Positions 17,686-63,960 of a DNA stretch of 64,000 bases are shown in pieces. Position numbers and translations under genes: made by a program. The notes below the pieces were generated by a model. The model had not been told where the DNA came from and did not search any database. It saw nothing but the letters and a program-made list of their open reading frames with translations. How positions within the stretch are numbered: position 1 is the stretch's first letter; each line of letters starts with the position of its first letter. Origin of the DNA: Bradyrhizobium sp. NDS-1 (lineage in GTDB: Bacteria > Pseudomonadota > Alphaproteobacteria > Rhizobiales > Xanthobacteraceae); assembly GCF_032918005.1 (NCBI RefSeq), contig NZ_CP136628.1, positions 5,255,501-5,319,500 on the forward strand, in the 5' to 3' direction.

Positions 17686-19998
17686 CTAGAACGCTCCGGC
17701 GATCGTGAGCCGGAACGTCATGGGCTCCACGGGGTGCAGCACGTAGTCCATCACGCCATTCTGACAGACTGCCGCTGGCGCGGTGCCCGATGTGCAGAGG
17801 TTGTAGAGCGTGTCGGTCCTGAGCAGCGACCCATAGGCATAGGTGATCTGGTTCGCCCTCGTGTTGAAAAGATTGAGCACGTCGAGCTGAAGGCGCCAGC
17901 CATTGTCGATGCGATAGCCGAGGCGGCCGTTGAAGATGCTGGTCGCGGAGGAGCGGAACGCGTTGTCCTCCGTCAGTGGGCTCGACGCCAGATAGCGCCA
18001 GCGCAACGTTCCGAACCAGCCCGTCTTCTCGCCCAGCGTCACGCCGGCCGACGCCACCATCGCCGGCGCATTCGGAATGTAGTTGCCGGGCGCGTTGCCT
18101 ATTTGCGCCTCCGGATAGCCGGCGAGCGAGGCATAGATCTCCGCCTGCTCGCTGTTGTAGCCGCGGAAACGCGCATGGGTCATGGCGAGATCGGCGTCGA
18201 TGTCGATCCATGACAGCGGCCGGTAATGGTTGGTCCATTCGAAGCCGTAGCGGCGGCTGGCGCGGGTGGCCGAGGTGTCGCCGGCATCGCCGGCGAACAG
18301 GATCTCGGAATCCTGGTCGAGGATGAAGAGACTGAGCGAGCTGTCGAGGCCGGGAACGATCCTGCTGCGCACGCCGACCTCCGCCCCCTTGGTACGAACC
18401 AGGAGCGGCGACGGCGTCAGCCTGGTCGCGGGATCGCTCGGGTCTTCCGTCGTGGTCGCACCGCGGGCATCGTTGGAGTGCATGCCGTAGCCCGCGCCGA
18501 GGAAGAACTCGGTCTGATGGAACGGCCCCAGCACCATCCTGAATTTCGGGCTGCCGAGCGCGGCGTCGGCGCGGCCGGAATTGTTGGCGTTGAACCGGGA
18601 GGTCACGTCCGCCGCATAATAGTCGCCGCGCCAGCCGACCGTCGTTCTAAGCCAGTCGGTCCATCGCACCGTGTTCTCGGCGAAGAGGCCGACACTGCCC
18701 TCGCCGACCTTGTCGCTGCGGACGTTGGAGAGAAAATCGCGCCGGAACGTGTTGGTGAGGGCAAGATCGATCGCGTCATAGCGCGACTGCAGACCGAAGG
18801 TGGTCTGCATCGGCAAGCCGGCCAGCGAGCCGTTCAGCGTGCGCGAGATGTTGGCGCCGGCCATCAGACGGTCGTCATGCTGGTGGAACTGGTCACCAAA
18901 CACGGGATCGCTGAGGTAGTAGGTGAAGTTATTGAAGAGATCGAGCTGGCTCTTCACGACATAGGCGTTGGCCTTCCACGACCCCGCATCGTCGCTCTGC
19001 GCAACGCGGCCCGAGAGTGCAAAGCGGTTGGTGTTGCCGCCGTCGCTCGGATCTTCCGAGCCGAAGCGGCTGAGAAAGCCTGCCGCGATCGCGCGCTGCG
19101 GCACCTGGTCGGTCGAATTCCATGCGTTCGTGTAGGCCATGCCGGTGATGGAGACGCCGTCGGTCGCGGTGCCCTGGCTGTAGCGAACCAGACCGTTGAG
19201 CTTGCGGACATTGTCCGGATGGTCCCACGGGCCGTTGTAGGTGCCGATCTCGCCGGCCACGAGCAGCGCGCCGTCACTCATCTTCGCGGAGTCCATGCCG
19301 AGGAGACGCCGGTAGCCGAAGCTACCCACGCTGACCTGCGCCAGTCCCTTGGTGCGGTCGATCAGGCCGACATGGACGCTTCCGACCGAGGCGAAATCGC
19401 CTTCCTCGGCGAAGTACGGACCCTTGCGCACATCCACCGCGGCGATGGTTTCCGGGATCAGCCAGTTGAGATCGGCATAGCCCTGGCCGTGCGCATGGGT
19501 GCGCATGTTGACGGGGACGCCGTCGACGGTGATGGCAAGGTCGGTGCCATGGTCGAGATTATAGCCGCGCAGGAAGTACTGGTTGGCTTTGCCCTCGCCG
19601 GAATGCTGCGTCACGATCAGGCCCGGCACCGCCTCGAGCGCTTCGCCCGGCCGCGTGAATGGGCGTGCATTGAGCTCTTCGCCGGAGATGGTGATCTCGC
19701 TGGCCATGCCGGGCCGGCTCCTTGCACCCGAGGCGACGCTGCTCCCGTCCGAGACTTGCGCCGCCGCAGGATACACAAGGACGCGGTCTCCGGCGGGGGT
19801 CGGCTTGCCGGAGCGTCGCGACGCGACCGGCTTTCTGCGCGTCGCCATCTCAGCACCGCCAATCTGGATTGGCGGCAGCTCGCGCAAGGCGTCACTGCTC
19901 TGCGCGAACACACGACCGTCATCGGCGAGCAGCACCAGGGCCGACAGAGCCGTCAGCGCGGCTCCGCCACGACCGGGCTCACGCCGCTTCGGTCGCAT
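17686..19998 (-). CDS. TonB-dependent outer-membrane receptor, probable nickel uptake
   Basis: A 770-residue receptor from the ATG at 19998. A basic N-terminus and hydrophobic core ending in VFAQ form the signal peptide. A plug domain (about residues 90-220, with LNARPFTRPGEALEAVPG) is followed by a 22-strand-type barrel ending in a terminal Phe (LTIAGAF). The start overlaps the NiCoT nickel permease stop by 20 bp, so the two are coupled. A NikR operator lies upstream of the pair. Together these indicate TonB-driven nickel, or chelated nickel, import across the outer membrane. Cobalt is an alternative metal. Confidence 0.88.
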   Translation of the reverse strand: MRPKRREPGRGGAALTALSALVLLADDGRVFAQSSDALRELPPIQIGGAEMATRRKPVASRRSGKPTPAGDRVLVYPAAAQVSDGSSVASGARSRPGMASEITISGEELNARPFTRPGEALEAVPGLIVTQHSGEGKANQYFLRGYNLDHGTDLAITVDGVPVNMRTHAHGQGYADLNWLIPETIAAVDVRKGPYFAEEGDFASVGSVHVGLIDRTKGLAQVSVGSFGYRRLLGMDSAKMSDGALLVAGEIGTYNGPWDHPDNVRKLNGLVRYSQGTATDGVSITGMAYTNAWNSTDQVPQRAIAAGFLSRFGSEDPSDGGNTNRFALSGRVAQSDDAGSWKANAYVVKSQLDLFNNFTYYLSDPVFGDQFHQHDDRLMAGANISRTLNGSLAGLPMQTTFGLQSRYDAIDLALTNTFRRDFLSNVRSDKVGEGSVGLFAENTVRWTDWLRTTVGWRGDYYAADVTSRFNANNSGRADAALGSPKFRMVLGPFHQTEFFLGAGYGMHSNDARGATTTEDPSDPATRLTPSPLLVRTKGAEVGVRSRIVPGLDSSLSLFILDQDSEILFAGDAGDTSATRASRRYGFEWTNHYRPLSWIDIDADLAMTHARFRGYNSEQAEIYASLAGYPEAQIGNAPGNYIPNAPAMVASAGVTLGEKTGWFGTLRWRYLASSPLTEDNAFRSSATSIFNGRLGYRIDNGWRLQLDVLNLFNTRANQITYAYGSLLRTDTLYNLCTSGTAPAAVCQNGVMDYVLHPVEPMTFRLTIAGAF

Positions 19999-21058
19999 CG
20001 GCGCATCCCAGAGCTTTGGTCGCGGCCCGGTGCCGTCCGCCCGCAAAGACGCGACGATAGAGCACGACCGAGACAAGCCAGGCGATTGCGAACAGTGCGA
20101 TCACGGCGAAGCCGACATTGGCGAGCGACTCGTTGAGACCTTCGACCAGCGCCCACACGCCCCCGGAGAGGCCGAACCGGTCGGCGGCCAACCCGAGCGC
20201 CTCGATACCGCCGATCAACAGCGCGACTGCCACGGAGGCGCCGGTGATCGTGAGGTTGTACCAGAGCTTTCGCAGGGGATCGACGAACGCCCATCGATAG
20301 GCACTCACCATCAGCGCGGAGTCGGCCGTGTCGACCAGCGCCATGCCGGACGCGAACAGCGCAGGGAAAACCAGGACATCCGCGACCGAGGCGCCGCGCG
20401 CGGCTTCGGTCGCGGAGATGCTGAGCAGGCCGATCTCGGTCGCCGTGTCGAAGCCGAGACCAAACAGGAAGCCGAGCGGATACATGTGCCATGGCTTTGT
20501 GACCAGGCGGAAGAGCGGACCAAACAGCCGCGCGAAGAAGCCACGATTGGCGAGCAGCCTCTCGAGACCCTCGGCGTCGTGGACGCCCTGCTCCCGCGCC
20601 GCCCGAAACGTCCGCCACAGGCTGACGAAGATGACGAGATTGATGGCCGCGATCACCAGCAGGAACAGTGCCGACACCGATGTGCCGATGAAGCCGCCGA
20701 TCTCCTCGAGCAGGCTGTCGCCGCCAAGGCTCACCACGCCGAGCGCAAGCAATATGGTCGCGACCACAACGACGGTGGAATGGCCGAGCGCGAAATGGAG
20801 GCCGACGCTGTGCGGCGCGCCGCCGGTCTGCATCAACTTGCGCACGACGTTGTCAATCGCGGCGATGTGGTCGGCGTCGACGGCGTGGCGCAGACCGAAC
20901 ACCCAGGCCAGCAGCGCAGTCGCCAGCACCGTCGGCCGGTCGCCGAACAGCGCGAAGGCCCAGGCCCATGCGGCGATGTTGGCGACGATGAGCCCCCCGA
21001 ACAGCACCAGCGTTCCGGGTTCGATCGCCCTTAAAGTCCGTCTCACCGCTTGCTCCAT
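19979..21058 (-). CDS. NiCoT-family nickel/cobalt permease
   Basis: A 359-residue inner-membrane permease of the HoxN/NixA/NicT family with about eight membrane segments. The diagnostic motifs are all present: RHAVDADH (57-64, the HX4DH metal signature), LGHSTVV (91-97) and LGFDTATE (201-208). It moves Ni2+ and sometimes Co2+ into the cytoplasm for enzymes such as uptake hydrogenase or urease. It is first in a two-gene unit with the TonB receptor. A perfect NikR operator sits 16 bp upstream of the start, so nickel excess should repress it. Confidence 0.95.
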   Translation of the reverse strand: MEQAVRRTLRAIEPGTLVLFGGLIVANIAAWAWAFALFGDRPTVLATALLAWVFGLRHAVDADHIAAIDNVVRKLMQTGGAPHSVGLHFALGHSTVVVVATILLALGVVSLGGDSLLEEIGGFIGTSVSALFLLVIAAINLVIFVSLWRTFRAAREQGVHDAEGLERLLANRGFFARLFGPLFRLVTKPWHMYPLGFLFGLGFDTATEIGLLSISATEAARGASVADVLVFPALFASGMALVDTADSALMVSAYRWAFVDPLRKLWYNLTITGASVAVALLIGGIEALGLAADRFGLSGGVWALVEGLNESLANVGFAVIALFAIAWLVSVVLYRRVFAGGRHRAATKALGCADATEAA

Positions 21059-21073
21059 CCACCCGATCCGGCA

Positions 21074-21101
21074 GTATGAGGTTTATCAAGAACCCTCATA
21101 C
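21074..21101. promoter_or_regulatory. NikR operator (GTATGA-N16-TCATAC)
   Basis: The sequence is exactly GTATGA, 16 bases, TCATAC, identical to the established E. coli NikR site including spacer. The symmetry extends to perfect 10-bp arms (CAGTATGAGG at 21072-21081 and its complement at 21094-21103). It lies 16-43 bp upstream of the NiCoT start, a position suited to nickel-dependent repression of the permease and its TonB receptor. No nikR gene is in the window. Confidence 0.9.
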
Positions 21102-21257
21102 TGGCAAGAGCAAGGAGCCGCGCCAGTTTCGAGCCTAACGGCCCGAAAAGCACACCGAAACGGAATTCAACTCATTGATCCAATGGAGACTTTCCTAGTC
21201 CGGGGCGTCGCCGCGCCGGAGCGGAATGCTGGACTGCGTTTCACGCAGGCGCGGCGA

Positions 21258-23531
21258 CTACATGTCCACCGTCATCGACAGCAGATAGGTGCGCGGTGCT
21301 CCCAGGAAGAACGTTCCGAACGACGCCACGCTCGACCAGTAACTCTCACCGGTCACATTCTGGATGTTTGCGCGGAAAACCGTCTTCTTGCCGTTGATCG
21401 CCGTGGTGTAACGCGCGCCGAGATCGAGCCGCGTCCAATCCGGGATCGGCTGCTTGTTCGCGCTGTCGACGAACTGCCGGCCGGTGTAGATGACGGCGCC
21501 GTTCAAGGTGAGATCTCTCATCCATGGCAGGTCCCATTCCGCCCCGATATTGGCCTGAATGGTCGGAACGCCGATCGGCGTATTGCCAACATTGGTCGCG
21601 ACGGCGGTCTTCGTCAGGGTGCCATCCAGGAACGAAAGACCTCCGAGGAGACGAACATCCGGCATGAGCTCGCCGTAGATGTTGACCTCGAGGCCGCGGA
21701 CCCGTTGCTCTGCGGTCGCCGCGAAGCGCCCGGCGGACAGCTCGCCGCTCGCCTTCGATATCTCGAAGGCGCTGAAGGTGGTTGCGATCCGGCCGAACTC
21801 CACCTTGATGCCGGCCTCGTACTGCTTGGCGACGTAGGGCTGCAGCACTTCACCGAAATTGGTGGCGGTCTGTGGAGCCACGTCGCCCTTGGCGAGACCC
21901 TCGACATAGTTCGCGTACAAGGAGACATGGTCGAGGGGCCGGACGACGAGGCCGACCACCGGGGTGACGGCGGTCTTGTCATAGGACGTCGTCGGCGTCC
22001 CGACATTGGAGGCATAGTTGTTCGCCTCGATGCCCTGGCGCCGGACGCCCAGGGTCAACAGGATGCGCTCGTCGAGCACGGACATGGTGTCGGCAATCGA
22101 AAGCCCCGTGAGCTGACTGTCCGAAAGTCGGGGCCGGTCGCTGATCTCGTTGGCAAATTGGGTTGGCGCGACGGTCGGATTGTAGATGTTCGACCCGACC
22201 AGACTGCCGTTGGTCAGCCGCCGATGCAGTGCGTCATGGTAGACCGAGGCCTGGAAGGCGACGGCATGATGCACGAAGCCGGTATCGAAGCGGGCGCGGA
22301 CGCCGCCGTCATAGGTGGTTCGATCAATGCTCAGTCCGAAGTACTGAGGCGTCGAGGTCGTGTTGCCGTTCGCGTTGACGATGGTCGGAAGGCCGAAAAA
22401 GCGCTCGACATTGGTCTTGGAGCCGCCGACGTCCGCAAACAGCGTGACCTGGTCGCTGAGATCGTACTCGGTCCGCAGCAACGCCGATTTGTCGGTGATG
22501 TTCGACCATTCCCAGGGCTGGGTCACGTTCAACTTGCCGTCCGGCGCCTTCGGCACCTGCAGGCCGGGAGCCATCAGAAACGGACGCGACGGAGCATCGA
22601 ACCGGTCGGTTTGCGCGATGAGATAGAGCCAGGACCTGAACCGCTCGCCTTGATAGTCGAGGGCCAGCGATCCGACGCCCGTCGTTTCGGATTGGCGATC
22701 GATCGGCGTGTCGCCGCCGCGGAGGCTCCCGGTGGCCCGTACGCCCCATTCCTTGCCGCTGCCGTAACGCCTCGCGACATCCCAGTGACCGCCGAAGCGT
22801 GCGACCGAGCCGTAACTTGCGGTCAATCGGGTCAGATCTTCTTCCGCACGCTTCGGCACAACGTTGATGACGCCGCCGACGCCGCCATTGGGAGCCATGC
22901 CGGAGAGCGCGGCCGAGGGACCCTTGAGCACTTCGAGGCGCTCGACGTAGTCCGTGAAGATGCGATAGGTCGGCGCGATTCCGTAGAGGCCTTCGAAGGC
23001 GAACTCACCATTGTTGCCTTCGTTGATCGGGAATCCACGAATGTTGAAGGAATCCACGATACCACCCGTCGGGTGGGAGCTTCGCACGGACGGATCGAGA
23101 ATCAGCGCGTCGGCACCCGTGGACGCCTGCCGATCCCGAATGAACTTGTCGGTGTAGCTCGTCACGTTGAACGGTGACTTCATGGTGTCGGTATTGCCGA
23201 GCAGTCCCAGCCGCGCGCCTCGCGCGACCTCGCCGCCTGCAAAGGCGGGAGCGACCCCCGATTGCGGTCGCGCTGCGGCTGTTTCGGTTTGCGGGGCGCC
23301 ACGCGCCGGGGCCCGCCGCGAATTCGATCGGGCCCGGACATCGTTTCGCTTGGTCGGCGCACGGCGGGCTGATTGTTGAGCCGGAGCATCGACCGTCACG
23401 GGCGGAATGGAATTGCCGCCTTGCGGTGTCTGGGATCGCGCAGGCGATTCGAACCACGCGAGCAACGCAACTCCACCCAGCAGCGCCGCACCAAAGCGGA
23501 CTACCGTCTCAACTCCACCCATCCGTCGCAT
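21258..23531 (-). CDS. TonB-dependent siderophore receptor (FhuA/FoxA-like)
   Basis: A 757-residue outer-membrane receptor. The signal peptide (residues 1-33, ending SPARSQ) is followed by a Pro/Arg-rich linker, a plug domain (about 110-240; VDSFNIRGFPINEG, VLKGPSAALSG) and a barrel. The spacing and SYGSVARFGG segments resemble the ferric siderophore receptor subfamily. It lies 200 bp downstream of the nickel permease start but points the same way, so it is a separate unit. An ICE-like half-palindrome about 75 bp upstream hints at iron control by Irr. The cognate siderophore is unknown. Confidence 0.92.
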   Translation of the reverse strand: MRRMGGVETVVRFGAALLGGVALLAWFESPARSQTPQGGNSIPPVTVDAPAQQSARRAPTKRNDVRARSNSRRAPARGAPQTETAAARPQSGVAPAFAGGEVARGARLGLLGNTDTMKSPFNVTSYTDKFIRDRQASTGADALILDPSVRSSHPTGGIVDSFNIRGFPINEGNNGEFAFEGLYGIAPTYRIFTDYVERLEVLKGPSAALSGMAPNGGVGGVINVVPKRAEEDLTRLTASYGSVARFGGHWDVARRYGSGKEWGVRATGSLRGGDTPIDRQSETTGVGSLALDYQGERFRSWLYLIAQTDRFDAPSRPFLMAPGLQVPKAPDGKLNVTQPWEWSNITDKSALLRTEYDLSDQVTLFADVGGSKTNVERFFGLPTIVNANGNTTSTPQYFGLSIDRTTYDGGVRARFDTGFVHHAVAFQASVYHDALHRRLTNGSLVGSNIYNPTVAPTQFANEISDRPRLSDSQLTGLSIADTMSVLDERILLTLGVRRQGIEANNYASNVGTPTTSYDKTAVTPVVGLVVRPLDHVSLYANYVEGLAKGDVAPQTATNFGEVLQPYVAKQYEAGIKVEFGRIATTFSAFEISKASGELSAGRFAATAEQRVRGLEVNIYGELMPDVRLLGGLSFLDGTLTKTAVATNVGNTPIGVPTIQANIGAEWDLPWMRDLTLNGAVIYTGRQFVDSANKQPIPDWTRLDLGARYTTAINGKKTVFRANIQNVTGESYWSSVASFGTFFLGAPRTYLLSMTVDM

Positions 23532-60197: not shown

Positions 60198-60326
60198 GGT
60201 TTCGGACCTCGGTATGACGTCAGTGGCACGTCACAGCGAACGAGGTCTCACCTTTGGCCTTGCAGCCGTCCGATGAAGCCGAATGCCTGTACTCCCCGAC
60301 CGACATCTTCGCGTGTGACCACGGCT

Positions 60327-60509
60327 GACGGCAGGTCTCCTGGCTCGCGGGTCAGTACCTTGCATCGCCTTCCCGGGACCGAGATACCCAGTGGCTCGTG
60401 AGGCAAGATTCGCCGCTCACAGTTGCGGGGGCAGCCACGGCATTGGGGACAACGTCCCCGCACCGCATTCCCTTTTCATCCCCTCTCGGGGAAACCGTCG
60501 CGAGCATCT
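60327..60509 (-). promoter_or_regulatory. Cobalamin riboswitch 1 (upstream of TonB receptor and PepSY)
   Basis: The minus strand contains the ordered core of the B12 aptamer: GATGAAAAGGGAATGCGGTG, then AATGCCGTGGCTGCC, CCCGCAACTGTGAGC, CCACTGG, GGGAAGGCG, and the B12 box AGCCAGGAGACCTGCC at 60330-60345. An ACGG/CCGT pair closes the outer stem. The aptamer points toward the TonB receptor (start 60197), leaving 133 bases for an expression platform. High adenosylcobalamin should reduce expression of receptor and PepSY. Confidence 0.93.
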
Positions 60510-60586
60510 AGGATTACCATCAAGACAGAGTCAATGTGCCAGTTGCGGCGTTATGGTCACAACGGCCAACTTCCTTGGAGATGAGC

Positions 60587-63682: not shown

Positions 63683-63730
63683 GGCTCAATTCCTTCCTGC
63701 CGTCACACCCGACGGCCTTGGCCTCAAAAC

Positions 63731-63960
63731 GTGCAGGGCCGGTCTCCTGGCTCGCGGTTCACTGGGGTTCTTCGGCCTTCCCGAGCCTTGCGGCCCAGTG
63801 GCTGATCGAAGTCCCTCACCGCTTACAGTCGCGGGGGCGGCTGGGGTTTTGGGCGCCGCAACTTGGTCCGCCCACCCCCATTCCCGATTATGCTCCGGCG
63901 CTTTGCGCCGCGTTGAGCACCATGCCTCTCCTGTGTGCCCCTTTCGGCGAGCCTGCGTCA
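63731..63960 (-). promoter_or_regulatory. Cobalamin riboswitch 2 (upstream of cbiM-like, cobF, cobT)
   Basis: On the minus strand the B12 aptamer elements appear in order: GGTGCTCAAC and GGAGCATAATCGGGAATGGG, then CCGCCCCCGCGACTGTAAGC, GCCACTGGGCC, CTCGGGAAGGCC, and the B12 box AGCCAGGAGACCGGCC at 63737-63752. The aptamer faces the CbiM-like start at 63682, about 50 bp away. It should repress cobalt uptake and cobF/cobT when cobalamin is plentiful. The upstream boundary is approximate. Confidence 0.92.

Follow-up and report, generated by a model that had tools for sequence, protein, structure and literature searches.

Within a 64,000-nucleotide stretch of the Bradyrhizobium sp. NDS-1 genome (contig NZ_CP136628.1, positions 5,255,501 to 5,319,500; hereafter the window), we found a NikR operator followed by the overlapping genes of a NiCoT permease and a TonB-dependent outer-membrane receptor. 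We consider it very likely that this operon is a two-step, NikR-repressed nickel importer. The unit consists of three features:

21072..21103, no strand assigned: NikR operator with perfect 10-bp arms, located by pattern scan and found at 72 of 80 related loci when one mismatch is allowed
19979..21058, minus strand: NiCoT (HoxN/HupN/NixA-type) nickel/cobalt permease, 359 aa, recognized by PF03824, TIGR00802 and four signature motifs
17686..19998, minus strand: TonB-dependent outer-membrane receptor, 770 aa, Bll6948 ortholog and predicted nickel receptor, recognized by PF07715 and PF00593

The permease scores 357.9 bits against PF03824 (cut-off 27.7; E 5e-107) and 426.2 bits against TIGR00802 (cut-off 333.05). 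Its translation holds all four NiCoT motifs, RHAVDADHI, FALGHSTVV, LGFDTATE and GMALVDTAD, and the signature motifs of this family are placed in transmembrane segments TM2, TM3, TM5 and TM6 (PMC7689651, Table 2; papers are cited throughout from excerpts). The receptor, the single match of its kind in the genome, has a plug domain (PF07715, residues 101-206) and a barrel domain (PF00593, residues 271-710). Its ATG at 19998 and the NiCoT stop at 19979 overlap by 20 bp; an overlap of the two genes had been described in an earlier note on this DNA. Among solved structures, the receptor matched only CirA and BtuB, distantly and in the plug, and the permease matched none. The NiCoT start is unsure (21044-21058), in that GGGTGG abuts the ATG of the open reading frame while a GTG four codons on has a better-spaced GGAG.

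The operator of E. coli NikR at nikABCDE has the consensus GTATGA-N16-TCATAC. In the window, this core is GTATGAGGTTTATCAAGAACCCTCATAC at 21074-21101 with 0 mismatches, and the arms at 21072-21081 and 21094-21103 form a perfect 10-bp palindrome; both the exact consensus with its spacing and the extended symmetry claimed in the earlier note were therefore borne out. That note had also placed the operator 16 bp before the permease; the position holds, but the distance from the operator core to the ATG of the NiCoT open reading frame counts 15 bp (21059-21073). A scan of the window with at most two mismatches gave two matches, where shuffled sequences gave 0.49 on average. We also ran the genome scan that the note had proposed: the 7.65 Mb hold 32 places at up to two mismatches, namely one exact, no one-mismatch and 31 two-mismatch places, and the backwards pattern, used as the control, gave 31, so that the exact site alone stands out, with no second copy at 0-1 mismatch. 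Further NikR targets in the same genome do not rise above background with this motif, which does not model weaker or differently spaced sites.

A nikR gene, whose absence the earlier note would have counted against the nickel reading, is present in the genome as one NikR_C match (C1:154838-155065), far from the operon. Residues 1-132 of its product align with 1q5v, a nickel-responsive regulator of known structure that we take to be E. coli NikR (E 1.4e-39). The first strand, MQRITIT, aligns with MQRVTIT, and HHDLALATLHVHLDDNNC aligns with HHDLSVATLHVHINHDDC, a stretch that is presumably the NikR metal site; the DNA-binding strand and the metal-site stretch are thus both conserved. The genome also contains hydrogenase large-subunit matches, a hydrogenase small subunit at C1:2.186 Mb, a urease match, and a second NicO protein (C1:1030136), which is histidine-rich and which we take to resemble an exporter of the RcnA kind. 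The nikR gene sits behind what appears by eye to be a P-type metal ATPase gene, and in B. diazoefficiens nikR is placed at the 3' end of copA (PMC10457146).

In the proposed mechanism, the receptor would bind nickel outside the cell, either as the ion or as a small chelate, and TonB-ExbB-ExbD would power its passage through the receptor into the periplasm, from where NiCoT would carry Ni2+ over the inner membrane by secondary transport. At sufficient cytoplasmic nickel, Ni-loaded NikR would bind 21072-21103 and cover the promoter or start region, thereby turning both genes off. Judged from sequence, nickel is very likely the cargo of the receptor, and from the NikR control alone we infer that the NiCoT prefers nickel over cobalt.

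Related loci lend this reading strong support. We compared the best 80 of 508 relatives from a receptor scan (designated by L numbers), counting an operator when it stood at the expected place with 0-1 mismatch. It is present in 72: in all 47 loci with a NiCoT before the receptor (one of which also has nikR nearby), in all 13 with nikR nearby and no NiCoT before the receptor, and in 12 of the 20 with neither. The 941,346 bases of these loci hold 73 sites, as against one for the backwards control, and the 73rd site, in L090, precedes not a receptor but a NiCoT gene on the other strand. The 72 operators represent 58 distinct sequences with half-site columns conserved at 94-100%, and their interior favours T in its left part and A in its right part. 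When no NiCoT precedes the receptor (25 operator loci), the operator lies 84-476 bp before the receptor match in 23 cases and 2.3-2.4 kb before it, ahead of exbB, in the other two. The operator accompanies the receptor even without an adjacent NiCoT.

We also examined a sample of 198 genomes from the same family. The receptor was found in 64 genomes, NikR in 91 and both in 57, so that NikR occurs in 57 of 64 receptor genomes versus 34 of 134 without the receptor (Fisher p 4e-18, uncorrected for descent). Receptor and nikR lie less than 1 kb apart in 35 pairs from 12 genera, and 34 of these pairs are divergent. Exact operators number 64 in 58 genomes, the control giving 0 among the matches listed; 42 are upstream of the receptor, nine near nikR only and 13 near neither, and among genomes with neither receptor nor NikR 3 of 100 have an exact site. 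The two samples are not independent, since the G469 receptor has the contig coordinates of L019 and that of G550 those of L045. Taken with the operators of the related loci, the co-occurrence and the close pairs support the earlier note's view of the receptor as a strong candidate for nickel uptake. In the same sample, seven genomes of the g298 genus (G406, G467, G486, G548, G561, G569, G578) carry a lower-scoring NikR (53-58 bits); six have an exact operator near nikR (that of G467 is elsewhere), none is among the receptor genomes, and they perhaps represent another type of NikR regulon.

Genes for nickel enzymes and nickel handling were observed near the receptor in some relatives. Hydrogenase-like genes were found by protein clustering in 14 of the 80 loci (L023, L042, L043, L047, L051, L052, L056, L059, L060, L084, L086, L089, L090, L096), of which the L060 members were run against Pfam, giving two hydrogenase small subunits downstream of the receptor. 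In L091 a HupE/UreJ permease neighbours the receptor, and in L088 (2085-7295) it is directly preceded by genes for a nickel-insertion protein (LarC-like, PF01969), for a PP-loop protein and for a weak NicO relative; the PP-loop protein is LarE-like by eye, and its Pfam match and that of the NicO relative are under the cut-off. L088 would thus place outer-membrane nickel uptake beside apparent nickel-pincer cofactor synthesis. An ExbB-like gene precedes the receptor in L074, L076, L080 and L083 (protein clustering), which belong to one receptor subclade, and Pfam confirmed ExbB, ExbD and TonB in L074. In L076 and L083 a 1-mismatch operator stands before the ExbB-like gene, an arrangement that would amount to a dedicated TonB system under NikR control. 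The receptor of L039, a record titled Frankia sp. RB7 (an actinomycete), is 84% identical and falls within Bradyrhizobium on the tree, and this assembly is probably misnamed.

Several observations weigh against the reading of the operon as a NikR-repressed nickel importer. Eight of the 80 loci lack the operator (L059, L069, L074, L080, L081, L088, L091, L092; L081 is cut by a contig end). In the family sample, 22 of the 64 receptor genomes lack an exact upstream site, exact sites being the only ones sought, and NikR was not detected in seven. At the window operator, a simple scan of 20950-21300 gave no sigma-70 promoter match, and the sigma-54 element described below fails the GG-N10-GC spacing. 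For the receptor family, we found no nickel expression or uptake data in the literature excerpts consulted. More distant relatives also lack the operator. A class sample of 385 genomes gave 15 with a receptor match at E 1e-60; L123, of the same genus, has an exact operator, L122 (same order, 59% identity) has no nearby site at 0-2 mismatches, and relatives of the same class with 38-45% identity have no nearby 0-1-mismatch site in any of the 11 of 12 that were covered (all but L128; one of the 11, L135, is cut by a contig end before the upstream region). The wider receptor family therefore need not be nickel-specific, and extending the nickel reading to all receptor relatives is not supported.

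We aligned 43 close receptors (60-92% identical to that of the window) with eight distant relatives, out of 12 tried (L122, L124-L134). H132, H150, H168, H170 and H507 are common to both groups and were rejected as nickel-specific ligands because the distant relatives carry the same residues. In contrast, H372 (43 of 43 close receptors) and H374 (93%), in the motif FHQHD, are missing from all eight distant sequences, and the close group is also marked by H209, E199, M287, M750 and C735/C745. These close-group residues are candidates for specificity, and metal binding by them is putative.

Three other explanations were weighed. The best-surviving one, that the imported metal is cobalt, alone or along with nickel, for use in vitamin B12, with NikR merely tuning the unit, we regard as improbable. 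NiCoT proteins include nickel- and cobalt-preferring members that are indistinguishable by sequence alone, cobalt receptors have been predicted elsewhere (PMC7689651), and the relative P0090 bears the database name 'NicelCobaltspecific TonBdependent outer membrane receptor'. However, many nickel-specific NiCoTs are under NikR control or have a [NiFe] hydrogenase operon nearby (PMC7689651), and here NikR operators stand at 72 of the 80 loci with nickel enzyme or insertion genes beside the receptor in some relatives. Nor does a cobalamin riboswitch stand at the nickel operon. The window has two such riboswitches, at 60313 and 63720, and control of the operon by them was rejected because both are located elsewhere. 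They occupy 60313-60514 and 63720-63939 (minus strand), score 129.8 and 105.3 bits, and probably control the genes downstream of them.

Still less probable is that the receptor is an importer of chelated iron or zinc whose gene is simply co-transcribed with that of the permease. Many database names among the matches listed refer to Fe transport, other TonB receptors serve zinc (PMC4176598), and the operon is adjoined by a second receptor:

21258..23531, minus strand: TonB-dependent siderophore-type receptor, a neighbour outside the unit (TIGR01783, 307.5 bits, cut-off 223.5)

This neighbour is on the same strand and ends 154 bp before the operator arms, and a relative of it with >85% identity adjoins 12 of the 80 related loci. 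Against TIGR01783, the family of siderophore receptors, the nickel receptor candidate reaches only 47.9 bits. Moreover, the receptor itself follows the operator in 23 loci without a NiCoT before it, and 34 of the 35 close receptor-nikR pairs are divergent. Finally, the palindrome is hairpin-capable and lies between two co-directional genes, but that it is a chance sequence or the terminator of the upstream gene has a negligible probability: a simple scan found no terminator-like site in 20950-21300, the half-sites are kept at 94-100% per column over the 72 loci, and a chance origin was rejected because the site is exact, unique at 0-1 mismatch in its genome and conserved against controls that gave one site in 941 kb and 0 among the matches listed for the 198 genomes.

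With the reading as a nickel importer retained, the part of this system worth following is the sigma-54/NikR arrangement. Next to the window operator lies the following element:

21110..21125, minus strand: sigma-54-like element TGGCGCGGCTCCTTGC, GG-N11-GC, the spacer from GG to GC being one base too long

The strict sigma-54 pattern is TGG(C/T)-N7-TTGC, i.e. GG-N10-GC, and the extra base breaks this spacing. The strict pattern is found upstream of the operator, 0-8 bp away, in 30 of the 72 operator-bearing loci (L020-L026, L030, L031, L035, L036, L040-L044, L047, L049-L052, L054, L060, L062, L063, L065, L075, L084, L086, L097), and the element starts 16-24 bases before the operator (21 at -23, five at -20, two at -21, one at -24 and one at -16). 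Of the 47 NiCoT loci, 27 carry the element, and the other three of the 30, L031, L035 and L075, have operator, sigma-54 element and receptor with no NiCoT between. NiCoT-type matches occur elsewhere in the genomes of L031 and L035, and all three loci seem to have lost the permease gene but retained its promoter. In forward orientation the strict pattern occurs 109 times in the 941 kb including those 30 (0.007 per 60 bases), while shuffled upstream stretches contain it in 0.28 of 47 loci on average, with a maximum of 2. Across spacings N3 to N12, enrichment was seen at N7 only (30 loci), N6, N8 and N11 having one locus each. The elements comprise 14 distinct 16-base versions; the loci are related, and therefore they do not count as 30 independent cases. 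The sole N8 locus is L019 (genome G469, flagged as the species of the window), and the extra base is common to the window and L019. In L045 the GC of the element is lost, and in L061 CGG for TGG is the sole difference.

Transcription from a sigma-54 promoter starts about 12 bases after the GC, and this start would fall inside the first operator half-site, so that NikR bound there would prevent promoter opening or initiation. The window genome has one sigma-54 match, and elsewhere in it (L137, 5994-6008) an intact sigma-54 element, TGGCCTGCTTCTTGC, ends 47 bases before the start of the hydrogenase small subunit. The same 15 bases are listed at -46 for hyaA of Bradyrhizobium sp. DOA9 (PMC13207237). 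Table 1 of that paper also gives the sigma-54 site TGGCCTGGCTCTTGC at -47 for the DOA9 'Nicel/Cobalt-specific TonB-dependent outer membrane receptor'; we found these 15 bases directly before the operator in L054, the DOA9 record, where the NiCoT match starts at a point consistent with -47. The paper links its predicted sigma-54 sites, as a set, to genes changed in rpoN mutants. Its text contains no mention of NikR (PMC13207237). No paper on an overlap of NikR and sigma-54 (RpoN) in rhizobia was found in the open-licence literature by title and abstract. Upstream of the sigma-54 loci, NifA-like TGT-N10-ACA boxes occur, at distances of -81 to -248, in six of 30, where their density predicts ~0.4, and in none of the 20 other loci used for comparison; FixK-like and NtrC-like boxes occur in 0 of 30. 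The NifA-like boxes of L041, L050 and L075 are identical over 16 bases and that of L044 nearly so, and with such shared bases and varying distances the evidence is too thin to name an activator.

By eye, elements resembling TTGCAC or TTGACA were seen at or within the operator of other loci. On the receptor tree, where promoters were labelled by simple patterns, the sigma-54 loci L060 and L063 stand at the unresolved base of the NiCoT-linked clade, and the promoter label requires 13 changes, as against 22.8 on average when shuffled. Given these 13 changes, descent from an ancestral sigma-54 promoter that was repeatedly replaced is offered as a reading and not as a result. Comparison with relatives suggests that the promoter under nickel control is, in many of them, of the class that serves hydrogen and nitrogen metabolism. 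On balance, we lean towards viewing the Bradyrhizobium nickel-import operon as an AND-NOT gate, in which an active regulator of hydrogen or nitrogen metabolism would switch ON a sigma-54 promoter, of the kind also found at the uptake hydrogenase, and NikR over the start site would turn it OFF at sufficient nickel. The operator would have persisted through changes of promoter in several lineages (sigma-54, TTGCAC-type, or TTGACA inside the operator), and the window lineage would have lost the spacing by one extra base and now use another promoter or read-through.

The idea of a nickel role is not new, having been published as a prediction for Bll6948, the ortholog in a different strain, Bradyrhizobium diazoefficiens USDA 110; Rodionov et al. 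2006 reportedly predicted a role for it as a nickel TonB-dependent receptor. The window receptor is 82% identical to Bll6948 (P0094 = bll6948) with 100% of the query covered, and it has a NikR operator upstream. BLL6948 has been tabulated for nickel with the mark Pr, which we take as predicted, citing Rodionov 2006 (PMC7142613), and was placed in a nickel/cobalt cluster (PMC3400609), while another paper counts it among receptors 'known to function' for nickel (PMC11247825). In E. coli, NikR, whose first strand and metal-site stretch align with those of the window genome's NikR, controls an ATP-binding cassette importer, whereas the window operator serves a NiCoT and an outer-membrane receptor.

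Recognition by the NikR of Helicobacter pylori is looser. FrpB4 and FecA3 of this species are NikR-repressed, and FrpB4 with TonB is needed for nickel scavenging, so that outer-membrane nickel uptake there is NikR-controlled and TonB-powered, as proposed for the window operon (PMC7689651, PMC11247825). FrpB4 falls in a heme-receptor cluster apart from that of Bll6948 (PMC3400609). Few outer-membrane nickel receptors have been shown to work, and mainly the Helicobacter ones are named (PMC7689651, PMC11247825). The receptor family described here is common in Bradyrhizobium and its kin, goes together with NikR in both genome samples, which overlap, and has hydrogenase or other nickel genes beside some of its members, and it therefore offers a good, non-pathogenic system for proving TonB-driven nickel uptake and for telling whether the ion or a chelate is carried. 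The overlap of sigma-54 and NikR, if true, would explain how nickel supply is matched to hydrogenase demand.

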